Shown here: positions 9,748 to 63,932 of the stretch, in pieces
Layout: the number at the start of each line of letters is the position of its first letter
Numbering within the stretch: position 1 is the stretch's first letter
Assembly: GCA_021324465.1 (NCBI GenBank)
Contig: JAJPJB010000104.1
Coordinates: 1 to 64,000, forward strand
Direction of reading: 5' to 3'
DNA: 64,000 nucleotides
From: Hyphomicrobiaceae bacterium
GTDB taxonomy: Bacteria > Pseudomonadota > Alphaproteobacteria > Rhizobiales > Xanthobacteraceae
Notes under the pieces: model-generated
Seen by the model: only the letters and a program-made list of their open reading frames with translations
Told to the model about the DNA's origin: nothing
Databases searched by the model: none
Translations under genes and position numbers: made by a program

Positions 9748-9902
9748 GCCTTGGTTCATGCCCTGAGTCACGCGGCGAGTGTGTTGGTGGAAGGCGCGGG
9801 CAAGGTCAAGTCCGGGGGCTTGTGGCGGCGCGCCTCCTAGGCTAAGCGCCGTCGGTACCGGTGGGCGCGGGCTTCGCCGTCCGGGCCATGGGGAGGGAAA
9901 CG

Positions 9903-10898
9903 GTGCGGAAGATTCTGAGCGCGATTTCACGCGCGTGCCTGGCAATTTGCGCGGCCGTGCCGCTGAGCGGGGTAGGCCCGGCGCAGGCCGACGATTTTCC
10001 GAGCCGACCGATCCATATCGTGATTGCTTTTCCGCCCGGCGGGCCGACCGATTTCGTCGGCCGCGTCGTCGCGGAGAAGATGAAGGCCGTGCTCGGCCAG
10101 CCGGTCATCATCGACAACAAGCCCGGCGCCAACGGCACGCTCGGCGGCGAATTCGTCGCCAAATCCGATCCTGACGGCTATACGCTGTTCCTGACCACGG
10201 CCGGGGCGGTGACGGTGTCGCCGCATATCATGGCCGATCTGCATTACGATTCGCTCCGCGACTTTGCGCCGGTGGCGCTCGTCACCAAAGTCACCGAAGT
10301 GCTGGTGGTGACGCCGAAGTCCGGCATCAAGACCGCGAAAGAACTCGTCGCGCTCGCCAAAGCCAAGCCCGGCACCATCCCGTTCGCTTCCACCGGAATC
10401 GGCTCGCCGCCGCATCTGGCGCAGGAACTGCTTGATGCGTCGGCCGGCGTGCAATTCCTGCACGTGCCCTATCGCGGCGCCGCGCCGGCGCTCACCGACC
10501 TTCTGGCCGGCCAAGTCGAAGTGCTCTCGGCCGACGTTCCCGTGCTGATCGCGCAGATCAAATCGGGCAATCTGGTGGCCGTCGGCGCCGCCGGCGAGAA
10601 ACGCGACGCCATCCTGCCGGACGTGCCGACGCTCGCCGAACAGGGCTATCCCAACACCGATGCATCGAACTGGTACGGCCTCTTGGCGCCGGCCAAGACG
10701 CCGCGGACGGCGATTGAGAAGATCAATGCCGCCGTGAACGCGGCACTCAACGATCCCGCCACGCGCGACAAGCTGGTTCAGACCGGCGCGACGCCAGTCG
10801 GGGGCACGCCGGAGAGCTTTGGCGCCTTCATGAAGGCCGAATATGAAAAATGGGGCCGCGTCGTGAAGGAGCGCAACATCAGGGATACGGGGCAGTAG
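9903..10898 (+). CDS. Bug/TctC-family tripartite tricarboxylate transporter substrate-binding protein
   Basis: A periplasmic solute receptor of the Bug family. A signal peptide occupies about the first 30 residues (hydrophobic core, AQADD cleavage area). The mature part has the hallmark opening [32 protein letters not shown], and DGYTLFLTT, then [10 protein letters not shown] and [16 protein letters not shown]. The GTG at 9903 is chosen because GGGAGGG lies 5 bases upstream; an ATG at 9888 is the alternative. No TctA/TctB membrane subunits are adjacent, which is usual for orphan Bug genes. It is the only + strand gene in a long minus-strand block, which suggests it was inserted there. The ligand is unknown. 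Confidence 0.9.
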
Positions 10899-27699: not shown

Positions 27700-28644
27700 A
27701 TGGCCGACCCGGAACGCGTCGCCGCGGCGCGCCGCTTCAACCGCTTCTACACGCGGCAGATCGGCGTGCTGCGCAAGAATTTCCTCGACAGTCCCTATTC
27801 GCTTGGCGAAGCGCGCGTGATTTACGAGATTGCCAACGGCACCTCGCCGACCGCAAGCGAGATCGGCCGCGCGCTCGACCTCGACGCCGGCTATTTGAGC
27901 CGGCTCCTGCGCAATTTCGAAAAGCGCGGCCTGGTCGCGCGCAAGGTCTCGGCCAAAGATGCGCGGCAAAGCCATGTGGCTTTGTCGGCGCGCGGCCGCA
28001 AGGCCTTTGTGTTGCTGGACGCGTTGTCGCAACGCGACATCGGCGCGATGCTCGACCGGCTGAAGCCGGCCGAGCAGACGCGGCTGATCGCGGCGATGCA
28101 AACCATCGAGTCGCTCCTTGGCGGCGCCCATGAAACAAAACAACAAAAAACAAAACAACAAAGCCGCAGCTATACGCTGCGCGCGCCGCTGCCCGGCGAC
28201 CTCGGCTGGATCGTGCAACGTCACGCCGAACTCTATGCGCAGGAATATCAGTGGACCGAGCCGTTCGAGGGGGTCTGCGCGCAGATCGTCGCCGATTTTT
28301 GCAACAATTTCGATCCCGAGCGCGAGCGCTGCTGGATCGGCGAGATGGATGGCGAGAAAGTCGGCTGCGTCTTCGTCGCCAAGGATTCCGACGAGGTCGC
28401 GCGGCTCCGGCTCCTTCTGGTCGAGCCAAAAGCGCGCGGGCTGGGTCTTGGCACCCGGCTCACCGAGGAGGCAGTCCGCTTCGCCCGCGCGGCCGGCTAC
28501 AAAAAGATGACGCTGTGGACACACAGCGTGCTCAAAGCCGCACGGCACATTTATCAGAAAGCCGGCTTCAAGCTGACACGCAGCGAAAAGCGCACCAGCT
28601 TTGGCCAGCCGGTGGTCAGCGAGCACTGGGATATGGAGCTGTAG
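27700..28644 (+). CDS. MarR-type regulator fused to GNAT acetyltransferase
   Basis: A two-domain protein of 314 residues. Residues of about 1-145 form a winged helix: the recognition part is SEIGRALDLDAGYLSRLLRN, and the wing reads RKVSAKDARQSHVALSARG. Residues of about 158-314 are a GNAT domain with the acetyl-CoA loop in KARGLGLGTRLTEEA and the C-terminal HIYQKAGFKLT. The linker is Lys/Gln-rich and comes from a tandem A-rich repeat. Fusions of this order are known in proteobacteria and usually link sensing to small-molecule acetylation. The effector is unknown. Confidence 0.92.
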   Translation: MADPERVAAARRFNRFYTRQIGVLRKNFLDSPYSLGEARVIYEIANGTSPTASEIGRALDLDAGYLSRLLRNFEKRGLVARKVSAKDARQSHVALSARGRKAFVLLDALSQRDIGAMLDRLKPAEQTRLIAAMQTIESLLGGAHETKQQKTKQQSRSYTLRAPLPGDLGWIVQRHAELYAQEYQWTEPFEGVCAQIVADFCNNFDPERERCWIGEMDGEKVGCVFVAKDSDEVARLRLLLVEPKARGLGLGTRLTEEAVRFARAAGYKKMTLWTHSVLKAARHIYQKAGFKLTRSEKRTSFGQPVVSEHWDMEL

Positions 28645-41890: not shown

Positions 41891-42865
41891 TTAGTTGCGC
41901 CCGCCTTCCGCGGTGACTGCCGCGGTCCATTTGTCGATATCGACGCGGATGAAATCGGCGAATTCCTGCGGCGTGCCGCCGAGCGGATCGACGCCCTGCT
42001 GCTTGAGCGCGCTCTGCACGGCCTCAGCCTTGAGACCGTCGTTCGCCGCGGCTGAAAGCTTCGCGATGACGGAAGCGGGCGTGCCGGCCGGCGCCAACAG
42101 CCCGATCCAGATGCCGGCGTCGTAGCCGGCCATGCCGGCTTCCGCCAGCGTGGGCACGTTCGGCATCATCGCCGCCCGCTTCGCCTGCGCCACCGCCAAG
42201 GCTTTCAGCTCACCCGCGGCGACATGCGGCGCAAGCGTCGCCGCGACGTTGAACATCAGGGTGATGCGGCCGGTCAGCAAATCGGTCACCGCCTGATTGC
42301 TGCCGCCCTGATAGGGCACGATGACAATCCTGGTGCCGACCCTCTGATTGAAAATCTCCGCAGCCAAATGGCTCGCGGTGCCGGCGCCGGACGAGCCGAA
42401 GGTCAAGCTGTCCGGTTTGCTCTTTGCGAGAGCGACCAGCTCTTTCAGATTGTTTGCCGGCACCGAGGGATGCGCGACCAGCACATTGGGCACGACGCCG
42501 AGCAGCGCGACCGGCGCCATGTCCTTGCCGAGATCGAAAGAAGAGTGAGTCGTGATCGGATTGAGCGTGTTGGCGACCGTCGCCATGAACAAGGTGTAGC
42601 CGTCGGCGGGGGCGCGCGCGACCAGTTCGGCCGCCGTCATGCTTGAGTTGCCCGGATGAGTCTCGATGACGACCGGCTGGCCGAGCCTGGACTCCATCTG
42701 CTTGCCGACCAGCCGTGCCATGACATCGGCGGCCGAGCCCGGGCCGAAGCCGCTGACGATCCTGATCGGCTGAGTCGGGAAATCCCGCGCGGCGGCCGGG
42801 GCGAGGCTGAGCGCCGTCGCGGCTGCAGCACAGAATGCGGCCAGTTTCCGGTAAAACCGACGCAT
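41891..42865 (-). CDS. Bug/TctC-family substrate-binding protein
   Basis: A second Bug-family periplasmic receptor. The signal peptide is MRRFYRKLAAFCAAAATALS up to the AAARD site. The mature start is FPTQPIRIVSGFGPGSAADVMAR, then GQPVVIETHPGNSS and DGYTLFMATV; PVALLGVVPNVLVAHPS and PYQGGSNQAVTDLLTG follow. No TctAB genes are nearby. It is divergent from an alpha/beta hydrolase-FAH-hmgA operon across a 164-base interval with a perfect palindrome, so it may bind an aromatic or organic acid handled by that operon. That link is inference. Confidence 0.92.
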   Translation of the reverse strand: MRRFYRKLAAFCAAAATALSLAPAAARDFPTQPIRIVSGFGPGSAADVMARLVGKQMESRLGQPVVIETHPGNSSMTAAELVARAPADGYTLFMATVANTLNPITTHSSFDLGKDMAPVALLGVVPNVLVAHPSVPANNLKELVALAKSKPDSLTFGSSGAGTASHLAAEIFNQRVGTRIVIVPYQGGSNQAVTDLLTGRITLMFNVAATLAPHVAAGELKALAVAQAKRAAMMPNVPTLAEAGMAGYDAGIWIGLLAPAGTPASVIAKLSAAANDGLKAEAVQSALKQQGVDPLGGTPQEFADFIRVDIDKWTAAVTAEGGRN

Positions 42866-42953
42866 CACCCGCTTCGACCGCGGTTGCCCCGCAGATCGCT
42901 TTGTTGACGTTTTCAGGCTGCGACCATACAGCTTGGCGAATGTTCCAGCAACA

Positions 42954-42977
42954 AAGCGGTAAGACTGCTTACCGCTT
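42954..42977. promoter_or_regulatory. perfect 10+10 inverted repeat, candidate operator
   Basis: AAGCGGTAAG (42954-42963) and CTTACCGCTT (42968-42977) flank the spacer ACTG. It lies between the divergent Bug gene (start 42865) and the hydrolase operon (start 43030), 89 and 53 bases from the two starts. The position and symmetry fit a dimeric repressor site. No regulator gene is adjacent. Confidence 0.6.
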
Positions 42978-43029
42978 CTCACGACAAAGCTCTTGGCACT
43001 GAGTCCGAGGCAAGCCATCGGGGGTAGCC

Positions 43030-43788
43030 ATGATCTGGCATCGGACGGTCGGTCAGGGTCCGACCAAGGTGATCTTCATCCACGGTTGGTTCTGGGACCA
43101 CCGCGTCTATGCGCCGATCGTCGATGCGCTCGACACTGATCGCCACACCTACGCTTTGTTCGATATCCGCGGCTACGGCAATTCGCGTGGCGAGCAAGGT
43201 TCATACACGATCGCCGAAGTCGCCGCGGACGCCGTCGCGCTCGCCGACCGGCTCGGCTGGCGCGATTTCCATGTCGTCGGCCATTCGATGGGCGGCAAGG
43301 CTGTGCAAAAGCTGGCGATGGACGCGGCAGGCCGGGTCAAGTCGGTCGTCGCGGTCACCCCGGTGCCGGCTGCGCCGCTGCCGTTCGACGACAACGTGTT
43401 CGGGCTTTTCGCCGCCGCCTGCGAGCGGGACGACGCCGCGCTCGGCATCATCGGCGATTCCGTGGGCAATCGTCTTGCGAAAAAATGGCTGGAGACGTTG
43501 TTGCGCCGGGCGCGCGAGACCGCGCGGCCCGAAGCGTTCAAGAGCTACATGCGCTCCTTCATCAAGGACGACCTCGCCGCCGACGCCGGCAAGCTCAAGG
43601 CGCCGCTGCTGGTCCTCTACGGCGAACATGACAACGGCGTCAGCGAGGCCATGGTGACGTCGGTCTTTCCGCAGCTCTATCCGCATGCGCAGATCGAGAA
43701 GATCGGCAATTGCGGACACTATCCGATGCAGGAAGTGCCGATCGCTTTCGCCACGCGCGTGGACGCCTTTATCGATCAGCATGCCTAG
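43030..43788 (+). CDS. alpha/beta hydrolase
   Basis: A 252-residue soluble alpha/beta-fold hydrolase. HGWFWDHRV is the oxyanion-hole region, [10 protein letters not shown] holds the nucleophile Ser, [21 protein letters not shown] contains the acid Asp near residue 200 in YGEHD, and [12 protein letters not shown] supplies the final His. The catalytic triad therefore looks complete. ATG 43030 has GGGGGTAG upstream. It is the first of three genes (with FAH and hmgA) transcribed together. Substrate unknown, presumably an ester or ring-cleavage product in this pathway. Confidence 0.9.
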
Positions 43789-43821: not shown

Positions 43822-44802
43822 ATGAAACTTGCCTCCCTCAAGAACGGCACGCGCGATGGCGTCCTGGTGGTCGTCGATCGCAAGCTGACACGATGTGCGA
43901 AAGTGCCGCAGATCGCGCTGACCCTGCAGCAGGCGATCGAGAACTGGACGGCGACCGCACCGAGGCTGCAAGTGATCTATGCTGATCTCAACGCCGGCAG
44001 AGCCGCGGGGGCCGAAACCTTCTCGGCCGAACGCGCGGAAAGTCCCCTGCCCCGCGCCTATCAGTTTCTCGACGGCTCGGTTTACCTCAGCCACATGCGC
44101 AAGGCGCGCAAGGCGCGCGGCGCCGACATGCCGCCGAACTTCGATACCGAGCCCCTGATGTATCAGGCGGTGTCGGACGGTTTTGTCGGTCCGACCGACG
44201 ATATGCCGTTCCCGACCGATACGCTTGGCATCGACATGGAGGCCGAGGTCGCCGTCGTCCTCGACGACGTGCCGATGGGGACGACGGCCGAGCAAGCGGG
44301 CCCGCACATAAAGCTCATCATGCTGCTCAACGACTACACGCTGCGCGCGCTGACCAAAACCGAGCTGCCGAAGGGCTTTGGCTTCATGCAGGCGAAGCCG
44401 ACCAGCTCGTTCTCGCCGGTTGCGGTGACGCCCGACGAGCTGCCGCAATGGGACGGCGACAAGCTCAATCTGCGCCTGATCTCGTCGATCAACGGCAAGC
44501 GCATCGGCGCCCCGCATGCCGGCAAGGACATGTATTTCACCTATCCGCAGCTGATCGCGCATGCCGCGCGCACGCGCAAGCTCGGCGCGGGAACCATTCT
44601 GGGCGCCGGCACGGTGGCCAATGAAGACGAAGCCGCGGGCTCCTCCTGCCTCGCCGAACTGCGCGCCAACGAGGAGCTCGCACACGGCAAGGCGCTCACC
44701 CCGTTCCTGAAATTCGGCGACCGGGTGCGCATCGAAATGTTGGATGACGCGGGCGAAACGATCTTCGGCGCCATCGACCAAAAGGTGGTAAAAGGGCCCT
44801 GA
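43822..44802 (+). CDS. fumarylacetoacetate hydrolase family protein
   Basis: A 326-residue metal-dependent FAH-fold enzyme. The core motif GIDMEAEVAVVLDD carries two metal-binding Glu residues. The third metal ligand is likely the Asp in LLNDYTLR, and FSPVAVTPDEL and LGAGTILGAGTVANEDE lie around the active site. An N-terminal domain (MKLASLKNGTRDGVLVVVDR) precedes it, as in the FAH type found beside hmgA in proteobacteria. With hmgA 70 bases downstream it likely performs the last hydrolysis in the homogentisate route, giving fumarate and acetoacetate. No maleylacetoacetate isomerase gene is seen. Confidence 0.88.
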   Translation: MKLASLKNGTRDGVLVVVDRKLTRCAKVPQIALTLQQAIENWTATAPRLQVIYADLNAGRAAGAETFSAERAESPLPRAYQFLDGSVYLSHMRKARKARGADMPPNFDTEPLMYQAVSDGFVGPTDDMPFPTDTLGIDMEAEVAVVLDDVPMGTTAEQAGPHIKLIMLLNDYTLRALTKTELPKGFGFMQAKPTSSFSPVAVTPDELPQWDGDKLNLRLISSINGKRIGAPHAGKDMYFTYPQLIAHAARTRKLGAGTILGAGTVANEDEAAGSSCLAELRANEELAHGKALTPFLKFGDRVRIEMLDDAGETIFGAIDQKVVKGP

Positions 44803-44822: not shown

Positions 44823-44871
44823 AGAAAAATGGGCGTGAGGCGCGATCCTGGACCAGTGGCGGAGCGTGGCC

Positions 44872-46221
44872 ATGAACATCATCGACAAATTTGAGATCAG
44901 CGAAGCCGTGCGGTCGACGGCGGGCAAGCTTGCTTATATGACCGGCTTTGAGAACTCGTTCGCCACCGAGGCGCTGCCGCATGCGCTGCCGCTTAAGCGC
45001 AATTCGCCGCAGAAGGCGCCGTTCGGCCTTTACGCGGAACAGCTCAGCGGCTCGGCCTTCACCGCGCCGCGCGCCTCCAACAAGCGAACCTGGTTCTATC
45101 GCATCCGCCCTTCGGTGAAGCACGGCCGCGGCTTCAAACCGGCCGACCGCGGGCTTATTCGCACCGCGCCATGCCGCGACGAAGGCACGCTGCCGTTCGG
45201 TCAGATGCGCTGGCGGCCGATCGAGATTCCCGCCGAGCATTGCGATTTCCTGAGCGGGCTGCGCACCATTGCCACCTGCGGCGACGTCTATCTGCAGGTC
45301 GGCATGGCGAGCCATGTCTATGTCGCCAACGCGTCGATGGAGCGCAAATATTTTTACAATGCCGACGGCGAGCTTCTACTCGTGCCGCAGCAAAACGTGA
45401 TCCGCGTCTTCACCGAATGCGGGCTGATAGAGGCCGAGCCGGGCGAAGTCGTGCTGATCCCCAAAGGCATGAAATTCAAGGTCGACCTGCCGAACGGCCC
45501 GGCGCGCGGCTATGTCTGCGAGAATTACGGCGCTTATTTCACGCTGCCCGAGCGCGGCCCGATCGGCGCCAATTGTCTCGCTAACGACCGCGATTTTCTC
45601 ACCCCGGTCGCCGCCTTCGAAGACAAAGAAGAGCCCTGCGAGCTCTATGCCAAGGCGCTGGGCAAGCTCTACGTCACCGAGATCGCGCAGTCGCCGCTCG
45701 ACGTGGTCGCCTGGCACGGCAACTTTGCGCCGTGCAAATATGATCTGCGCCGCTTCTCGCCGGTCGGCTCTGTGCTGTTCGATCACCCCGATCCGTCGAT
45801 CTATACCGTGCTGTCCTCGACGTCAGACACGCACGGTACCGCCAATGTCGATTTCGTGATCTTTCCGGAGCGCTGGGTGGTCATGGAGGATTCGTTCCGG
45901 CCGCCCTGGTACCACATGAACGTCATGAGCGAGTTCATGGGGCTGATCTACGGCGTCTATGACGCCAAGCCCACGGGATTTGTTCCCGGCGGCATGAGCC
46001 TGCACAATGCGCTGGTGGCGCACGGCCCGGATGCCGAGGCCTTCGAGCGCGCCTCCAACGCCAAGCTCGAGCCGCAGAAGCTTGCCGGCACGATGGCCTT
46101 CATGTTCGAGACGCGCTATCCGCTCTGCCCGACCGCCTACGCCTCGAATCTGGAATTGGTCGACGGCGCATATCCCGACGCCTGGGACGGATTGAGAAAG
46201 CTTTATTCGCCCGGCGCGTGA
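44872..46221 (+). CDS. hmgA: homogentisate 1,2-dioxygenase
   Basis: A non-haem Fe(II) ring-cleaving dioxygenase that turns homogentisate into maleylacetoacetate in tyrosine and phenylalanine breakdown. Family sequence is clear: YMTGFENSFATEALP, FGLYAEQLSGSAFTAPR, and near the C-terminus FRPPWYHMNVMSEFMGLIYG in its central part PPWYHMNVMSEFMG, where the iron ligands His and Glu lie. The 449-residue length is normal. ATG 44872 is chosen because GGAG sits seven bases upstream. Transcribed with the hydrolase and FAH genes. Confidence 0.96.
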   Translation: MNIIDKFEISEAVRSTAGKLAYMTGFENSFATEALPHALPLKRNSPQKAPFGLYAEQLSGSAFTAPRASNKRTWFYRIRPSVKHGRGFKPADRGLIRTAPCRDEGTLPFGQMRWRPIEIPAEHCDFLSGLRTIATCGDVYLQVGMASHVYVANASMERKYFYNADGELLLVPQQNVIRVFTECGLIEAEPGEVVLIPKGMKFKVDLPNGPARGYVCENYGAYFTLPERGPIGANCLANDRDFLTPVAAFEDKEEPCELYAKALGKLYVTEIAQSPLDVVAWHGNFAPCKYDLRRFSPVGSVLFDHPDPSIYTVLSSTSDTHGTANVDFVIFPERWVVMEDSFRPPWYHMNVMSEFMGLIYGVYDAKPTGFVPGGMSLHNALVAHGPDAEAFERASNAKLEPQKLAGTMAFMFETRYPLCPTAYASNLELVDGAYPDAWDGLRKLYSPGA

Positions 46222-63023: not shown

Positions 63024-63875
63024 ATGAAACTGGTTCGTTACGGCGCCCCCGGCCGCGAAAAGCCCGGTATGATCGACAAGGACGGCAAGCTGCGGGATCT
63101 GTCAAAGATCGTGCCCGATATTGCCGGCGACGTGCTCTCGCCAAAGGGGCTGAATAGGCTGCGCAAGCTGAAACCGGAAAAGCTGCCGCCGGTGCGCGGC
63201 AATCCGCGCATCGGGCCATGCGTCGGCAAGGTCGGCAATTTCATCGCCATCGGGCTGAATTATTCCGATCACGCCGCGGAAGCCGGCATGCCGATCCCGA
63301 GCGAGCCGGTGATCTTCAACAAGGCGCCGACCTGCATCTGCGGCCCCAACGACGATACAATCATCCCCAAGGGCTCGTCCAAGCTCGATTGGGAAGTCGA
63401 GCTTGGCATCGTCATCGGCCAGCGCGCGCGCTATTTGAGCAAGGAAAACGCGCTCGACGTCGTCGCCGGCTATTGCCTCGCCAATGACGTGTCGGAGCGC
63501 GTATTTCAGATCGAGCGCGCCGGGCAATGGACCAAGGGCAAAGGCTGCGAGACTTTCGGGCCGCTCGGTCCATGGCTGGTGACCAAGGACGAGATCAAGG
63601 ACCAGCAAAACCTTGATTTGTGGCTCGATGTCAACGGCGAGAAACGCCAGCGCGGCAATACCTCGAAGATGATTTTCGACTGCCGTCACATCGTCTGGGC
63701 CTGCTCGCAATATTTTGTCATGGAGCCCGGCGATGTCATCATCACCGGCACACCGCCCGGCGTCGGCCTCGGCATGAAGCCCGAGCCGAAATTCTTGAAG
63801 GCGGGCGATGTAGTCACGCTCGGCATCACGGGCTTGGGCGAGCAGCGGCAGAGGGTGGTGAAGGCGAAGGTTTGA
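63024..63875 (+). CDS. fumarylacetoacetate hydrolase family protein (FAHD1-like)
   Basis: A 283-residue metal-dependent enzyme. SKLDWEVELGIVIG carries the two Glu metal ligands and the Asp in ANDVSERV is the third; GKGCETFGPLGPWLV and ITGTPPGVG line the active site. It is the FAHD1-like or oxaloacetate decarboxylase type, clearly different from the FAH at 43822. With the SDR it may handle a keto-acid or beta-diketone. Substrate unknown. Confidence 0.9.
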   Translation: MKLVRYGAPGREKPGMIDKDGKLRDLSKIVPDIAGDVLSPKGLNRLRKLKPEKLPPVRGNPRIGPCVGKVGNFIAIGLNYSDHAAEAGMPIPSEPVIFNKAPTCICGPNDDTIIPKGSSKLDWEVELGIVIGQRARYLSKENALDVVAGYCLANDVSERVFQIERAGQWTKGKGCETFGPLGPWLVTKDEIKDQQNLDLWLDVNGEKRQRGNTSKMIFDCRHIVWACSQYFVMEPGDVIITGTPPGVGLGMKPEPKFLKAGDVVTLGITGLGEQRQRVVKAKV

Positions 63876-63907: not shown

Positions 63908-63932
63908 GACCCGCGGGCCCGACCCGCGGGTC
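63908..63932 (+). terminator. 10-bp-arm GC-rich hairpin after the FAH gene
   Basis: GACCCGCGGG (63908-63917) pairs perfectly with CCCGCGGGTC (63923-63932) around a CCCGA loop, 33 bases after the stop. Each arm also contains the palindrome CCCGCGGG. There is no T tract; it may be part of a dispersed repeat. The rest of the window end (63933-64000) shows nothing recognisable. Confidence 0.45.

Follow-up and report, generated by a model that had tools for sequence, protein, structure and literature searches.

A perfect palindrome between a Bug gene and a hydrolase-FAA hydrolase-hmgA operon as a possible lineage-specific operator

The intergenic region between a Bug/TctC gene and a divergent hydrolase-FAA hydrolase-hmgA operon carries the perfect dyad AAGCGGTAAG-ACTG-CTTACCGCTT (42954..42977, no strand assigned), as read from the sequence. 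We tentatively favor the reading that this dyad is a private, i.e., lineage-specific, operator, located where the hydrolase operon begins and bound by a dimeric repressor whose gene is unlinked. That it is a dyad without function is nearly as likely. Coordinates refer to the window, i.e., the whole analyzed stretch of 64,000 nucleotides, unless a related locus is named.

The palindrome and its neighboring genes

The dyad lies within a gap of 164 bp between the Bug ATG at 42865 (minus strand) and the ATG of an alpha/beta hydrolase at 43030 (plus strand). The original prediction described an exact 10+10 palindrome of balanced AT/GC content at 89 and 53 bases from these two starts. The sequence confirms all of this, with 5/10 G/C in each arm. 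That is, we find what is expected of an operator-type element, a near-perfect dyad within a promoter region. Position 42865 is taken as the probable Bug start because of the signal-peptide-like N-terminus found there, while a longer frame is possible. The Bug reading frame is open across the palindrome, up to 43018.

The Bug/TctC solute-binding protein (41891..42865, minus strand; PF03401, E 2.6e-65) has its nearest orthologues at 66-74%. On the plus strand, the alpha/beta hydrolase (43030..43788; PF00561; orthologues in relatives up to 78%) is followed by a FAA hydrolase family protein (43822..44802) with the domains FAA_hydro_N_2 and FAA_hydrolase (PF01557), which scores 30.5 bits against the NCBIfam fumarylacetoacetase model, i.e., under its cut-off of 375.3. 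The third gene encodes the homogentisate 1,2-dioxygenase HmgA (44866..46221; TIGR01015, 635 bits vs. a cut-off of 510.75). The proposed gene identities are thus supported by the Pfam and TIGR profiles, the divergent arrangement is confirmed as well, and the absence of an adjacent regulator gene is consistent with the window's gene list, read by eye. The name 'homogentisate operon' is only half right: hmgA is present, but the partner that is kept together with Bug and hydrolase is a gene of the CMD family (see below). Elsewhere in the window, we observe a second TctC/Bug gene (9861-10898; PF03401) with 40% identity to the first one, as well as a MarR-GNAT fusion protein (27700-28644, by Pfam), which is a possible regulator about 14 kb from the dyad.

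We also searched for other copies of the dyad, as had been proposed. Allowing for up to 3 mismatches, it is found once in the window and once in the 4.57 Mb assembly, so it is not a dispersed repeat in its own genome. Many copies at unrelated 3' ends, which were named beforehand as the sign of a dispersed repeat or terminator, are not seen there. For the 16-base core, up to 3 mismatches yield 22 places in the genome including the dyad itself, compared to about 17 expected (arithmetic, equal base frequencies) and 92 matches of a reversed-pattern control. There is thus no surplus of degenerate copies in the genome and no sign of degenerate sister sites.

To relate the dyad to chance expectation, we counted perfect dyads with arms of at least 10 bases and a spacer of 0-10. 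The window shows 4 of them, compared to 2.6 on average and at most 7 in 40 order-2 Markov simulations; two of the remaining three are within called ORFs and one is outside. When the 164-bp gap was simulated alone (order-1), a dyad was produced in 32/20,000 cases. That is, the dyad is uncommon for its promoter and ordinary for the whole window, such that it may well have arisen by chance.

Promoters and other elements of the gap

We predict the promoter of the hydrolase operon at 42904..42932 (plus strand), composed of TTGACG (42904-42909), a 17-base spacer, and TACAGC (42927-42932). The pattern TTGACG-N17-TACAG[C/A] aligns in 7/7 gaps, i.e., in the window and in 6/6 relatives. A consensus scanner reported no promoter at 42700-43200 because its rule requires the -10 element to end in T. 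With a distance of 7 bases from the -10 element, transcription would start near 42939, and the dyad would span roughly positions +16 to +39 of the predicted transcript. A possible Bug promoter (42923..42951, minus strand), weak and read by eye, is formed by TTGCTG (42951-42946), 17 bases, and TATGGT (42928-42923); it is likewise absent from the scanner output.

The -35 element is overlapped by the 14-mer box TCGCTTTGTTGACG (42896..42909, plus strand), which is identical in the window and the relatives G131, G326, and G253. Its own genome holds only 1 perfect copy and 3 more with 1 mismatch. In the Bug/CMD gap of G131 (L075), the promoter copy of the box CGCTTTGTTGACG is directly preceded by two similar copies, and its sister genomes G326 and G253 have a single one.

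Overlapping the dyad's left arm, CAACAAAGCG (42949..42958, plus strand) is an inverted copy of CGCTTTGTTG (42897-42906). No other such inverted pair, 30-55 bases apart, is found in the genome. Nevertheless, some 10-mer occurs twice in 374/5000 simulated gaps, which makes the pair a modest observation. We thus do not take it as a true operator, given that it is single in the genome but within the simulated range, and keep it as a lead.

Related loci and known systems

Scoring five candidates per genome, we found the nearest Bug orthologues (66-74%; next best at most 54%) in 11/390 other family genomes (loci L033-L043) and located their neighbors by tblastn of the window's proteins. At six of these loci (L033-L038), Bug is divergent from the hydrolase orthologue (69-78%), and the hydrolase unit begins with a gene for a 128-aa protein of the CMD family (PF02627, 55.1 bits vs. 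23, run on the G131 protein). At L039 and L040, Bug and hydrolase are codirectional with CMD divergent; the short contig L041 also shows them codirectional, with no CMD seen, and the 14 and 8.8 kb retrieved for L042 and L043 gave no hydrolase match. Thus, among the 11 loci, Bug and hydrolase are paired divergently at 6 and as codirectional neighbors at 3. This recurrence makes a joint control sensible. The prediction that one repressor governs both units is therefore plausible as far as joint control from gene arrangement is concerned, while the palindrome as the control site is unsupported, since it is absent in the relatives.

That is, the dyad is present in 0/6 relatives with the same promoter, and over their entire Bug-hydrolase gap, together with the CMD gene, the arms of the longest perfect dyads measure 7-8 bases. 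Allowing for up to 2 mismatches, it is also found in 0/390 other family genomes, where a reversed control pattern matched 15/391. The conservation upstream of orthologous genes that an operator might show is hence seen neither in the six relatives nor in the family genomes. The relatives keep the promoter, not the palindrome. With regard to gene content, the module of Bug, CMD, and hydrolase in these six genomes (G131, G326, G253, G175, G331, G382) resembles the window in its divergent Bug/hydrolase units and its promoter. It differs by the CMD gene, by a gap without comparable palindrome, and by fetched 16-kb regions in which the window's FAA hydrolase and HmgA are unmatched. Over the fetched regions of all 11 loci, nothing matches the FAA hydrolase, and HmgA is matched once and in part (56%, L082, where the fetched stretch breaks off). 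CMD, in turn, is absent from the window's gap and its best match in the genome reaches 24%; the gene was presumably either lost from the window's lineage or never present in it.

For the remaining proteins, we searched even samples from larger groups and scored a few best candidates per genome. The nearest HmgA relatives (79-80%, E 1e-215) were found in 5/376 other genomes of the order, all of genus g37. The FAA hydrolase was found in 0/350 other family genomes at E 1e-140, and the hydrolase in 4/396 other genomes at E 1e-70. In 5/5 g37 clusters, gntR is divergent from a luxR-type gene, which is followed by FAH, SDR, and HmgA (domains by Pfam on L093: GntR and FCD for gntR, GerE for the luxR-type gene). 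The 24-mer CACGCATGCGAGTTTGCATGCAAA between gntR and luxR is identical in all five (L084, L093, L114, L115, L116), and conserved GCATGC pairs stand beside gntR at 6/6 loci examined. The locus of G318 (L082) also has gntR and luxR, with the palindrome TTTGCATGCAAA twice between them, and its Bug gene carries GCATGC-N10-GCATGC. We consider the 24-mer and the GCATGC pair a well-supported candidate operator of the g37 and G318 clusters.

Among our findings, g37 provides the nearest HmgA relatives, and G318 additionally has Bug and hydrolase orthologues. The window differs from both: a g37-type GntR is absent from its genome at E 1e-20, and the 164-bp gap holds no GCATGC. We thus reject a GntR/GCATGC control of the window's operon. 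Within the window, TGCATGCA occurs once (14073) and a GCATGC pair once (19511), both away from the operon, and a g37-type LuxR has no match at 1e-15. Convincing conserved sites thus exist for the pathway in relatives, and the window's palindrome is not among them. As a side observation, the dyad GTCACA-N6-TGTGAC, a possible LuxR-type target, occurs in the CMD/Bug gap of L082 (around 9275) and L093 (around 6153) as well as in the luxR-SDR interval of L081 (around 6258); a looser TCACA-N6-TGTGA is found at L078 (11952).

Concerning known systems, PMC5343134 describes HmgR (IclR), HmgQ (LysR), and HmgS (MarR) as controlling homogentisate genes in Gammaproteobacteria. According to this study, hmg genes are under local regulators of unrelated families, and most motifs are palindromic with 15-25 nt. 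The regulators are local in these systems, in contrast to the window with none adjacent. On plasmid 2 of Variovorax sp. RA8 (NZ_LR594663.1), a hydrolase (49%) is directly followed by a FAA hydrolase (64%), and Bug genes are present, one of them divergent. Different from the window, an AraC-family regulator is annotated alongside, the divergent gap has other dyads, and no hmgA is annotated in the stretch shown.

To see where the dyad occurs outside the family, we searched its 9+9 core in a collection covering 84,980 species, from which the own genome is possibly left out. About 4 stretches are expected (arithmetic, equal base frequencies) vs. 8 exact matches seen, all in unrelated organisms and settings. 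Three of the eight carry all 20 bases (L065, L066, L069). One match is placed in a divergent gap (L062), four are near or between ORF ends (L063, L066, L067, L069), one is within an ORF (L064), and two are within mechanical ORFs (L065, L068). As to the proposed test of whether copies neighbor aromatic genes, 0/8 core matches adjoin an aromatic-catabolism gene (ORF starts, by eye).

Competing readings of the dyad

If the dyad is an operator, its two arms would be bound by a dimeric repressor of the helix-turn-helix type, whose gene would lie elsewhere in the genome. Binding would take place about 16-39 bases past the predicted start of the transcript that covers hydrolase, FAA hydrolase, and hmgA. 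The bound repressor would keep transcription from initiating, or stop it early in elongation, until a substrate, as presumed ligand, releases it. The dyad is also just upstream of the weak proposed Bug -35 element, such that one protein could touch both transcripts and might affect Bug as well. What argues for the operator is the perfect 10+10 symmetry between divergent genes and just after a promoter common to all seven aligned sequences, the single copy in the genome, the lack of a T-run following the plus-strand stem, and the palindromic elements that relatives' versions of the pathway carry in regulatory gaps, though different ones. Against it stand the missing dyad in relatives and family genomes, the lack of a linked regulator and of surplus degenerate copies, a window dyad count close to simulation, and the unrelated settings of the exact 9+9 matches in other species. 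Further sites elsewhere in the genome, which an operator need not have, were not found at up to 3 mismatches.

A functionless dyad of chance or mutational origin is nearly as likely. Here, the right arm would stem from the old leader of a lost CMD gene, while the left arm arose alongside during rearrangement, e.g., by template switching. The right arm with the bases that follow (CTTACCGCTTCTCACGACAAAG) agrees at 15/22 positions with the CMD leader found in G131, G326, and G253. Among 2000 simulated leaders, 54, 71, and 60, respectively, attain this value. For the left arm, the alignment shows no clear counterpart. Together with the best CMD match of 24% in the genome, this fits a dyad that originated in the lineage at the border of the CMD gene that was lost. 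The match of 15/22 is only suggestive, however, since the segment length was picked after the alignment and the three relatives are mutually close. Moreover, so short a gap rarely produces a perfect dyad by chance, as the simulations above show. Given its location downstream of the predicted start, the dyad could instead act as RNA, i.e., the operon mRNA would carry a 10-bp hairpin in its 5' leader, with an effect on mRNA stability or translation. The 24-mer indeed folds at -13.8 kcal/mol (z -5.97), and the 97-nt leader retains the hairpin in its minimum-energy fold. We nevertheless regard this as unlikely: every DNA palindrome folds as RNA, the whole leader reaches a z of only -1.77 with 11/200 shuffles as good, and there is no sister sequence to show paired changes. 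A known structured RNA is not found either, as no Rfam family scores above its gathering score; the one match (E 0.89, 18 bits vs. 61) is located away from the palindrome.

It is very improbable that the dyad serves as a terminator or insulator between the divergent units or represents a dispersed repeat. The minus-strand sequence after the stem, TGTTG, is a poor T-tract, and the four core matches near or between ORF ends in other species point in the same direction. But the dyad is placed between two starts rather than two ends, and the only hit of a terminator scan is 42880-42899, not the palindrome. We therefore discard an intrinsic terminator, for which the T-run after a stem downstream of a gene is missing, as well as a REP-like repeat, for which the single copy stands in place of many.

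Combining the operator with the history of the CMD gene, the lineage might have rebuilt its control at the old promoter after CMD was lost. A new perfect operator would then have been formed from the former CMD leader, and the FAA hydrolase-hmgA operon, which has gntR/luxR-type neighbors in relatives, would now be under a different, unlinked repressor. We consider such an operator birth in one species quite a long shot. If the dyad is an operator, its 24 bp offer a bait for finding a regulator of homogentisate-type catabolism in the family. Otherwise, it is a case for caution: the evidence from a single perfect promoter palindrome is weak, because relatives keep the promoter itself and not the palindrome.

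Apart from the gap, the window contains the GC-rich perfect dyad GACCCGCGGG-N5-CCCGCGGGTC (63908-63932). It is located 33 bases past the stop of an ORF (63024-63875) with a weak match to the window's FAA hydrolase and is perhaps a terminator stem.
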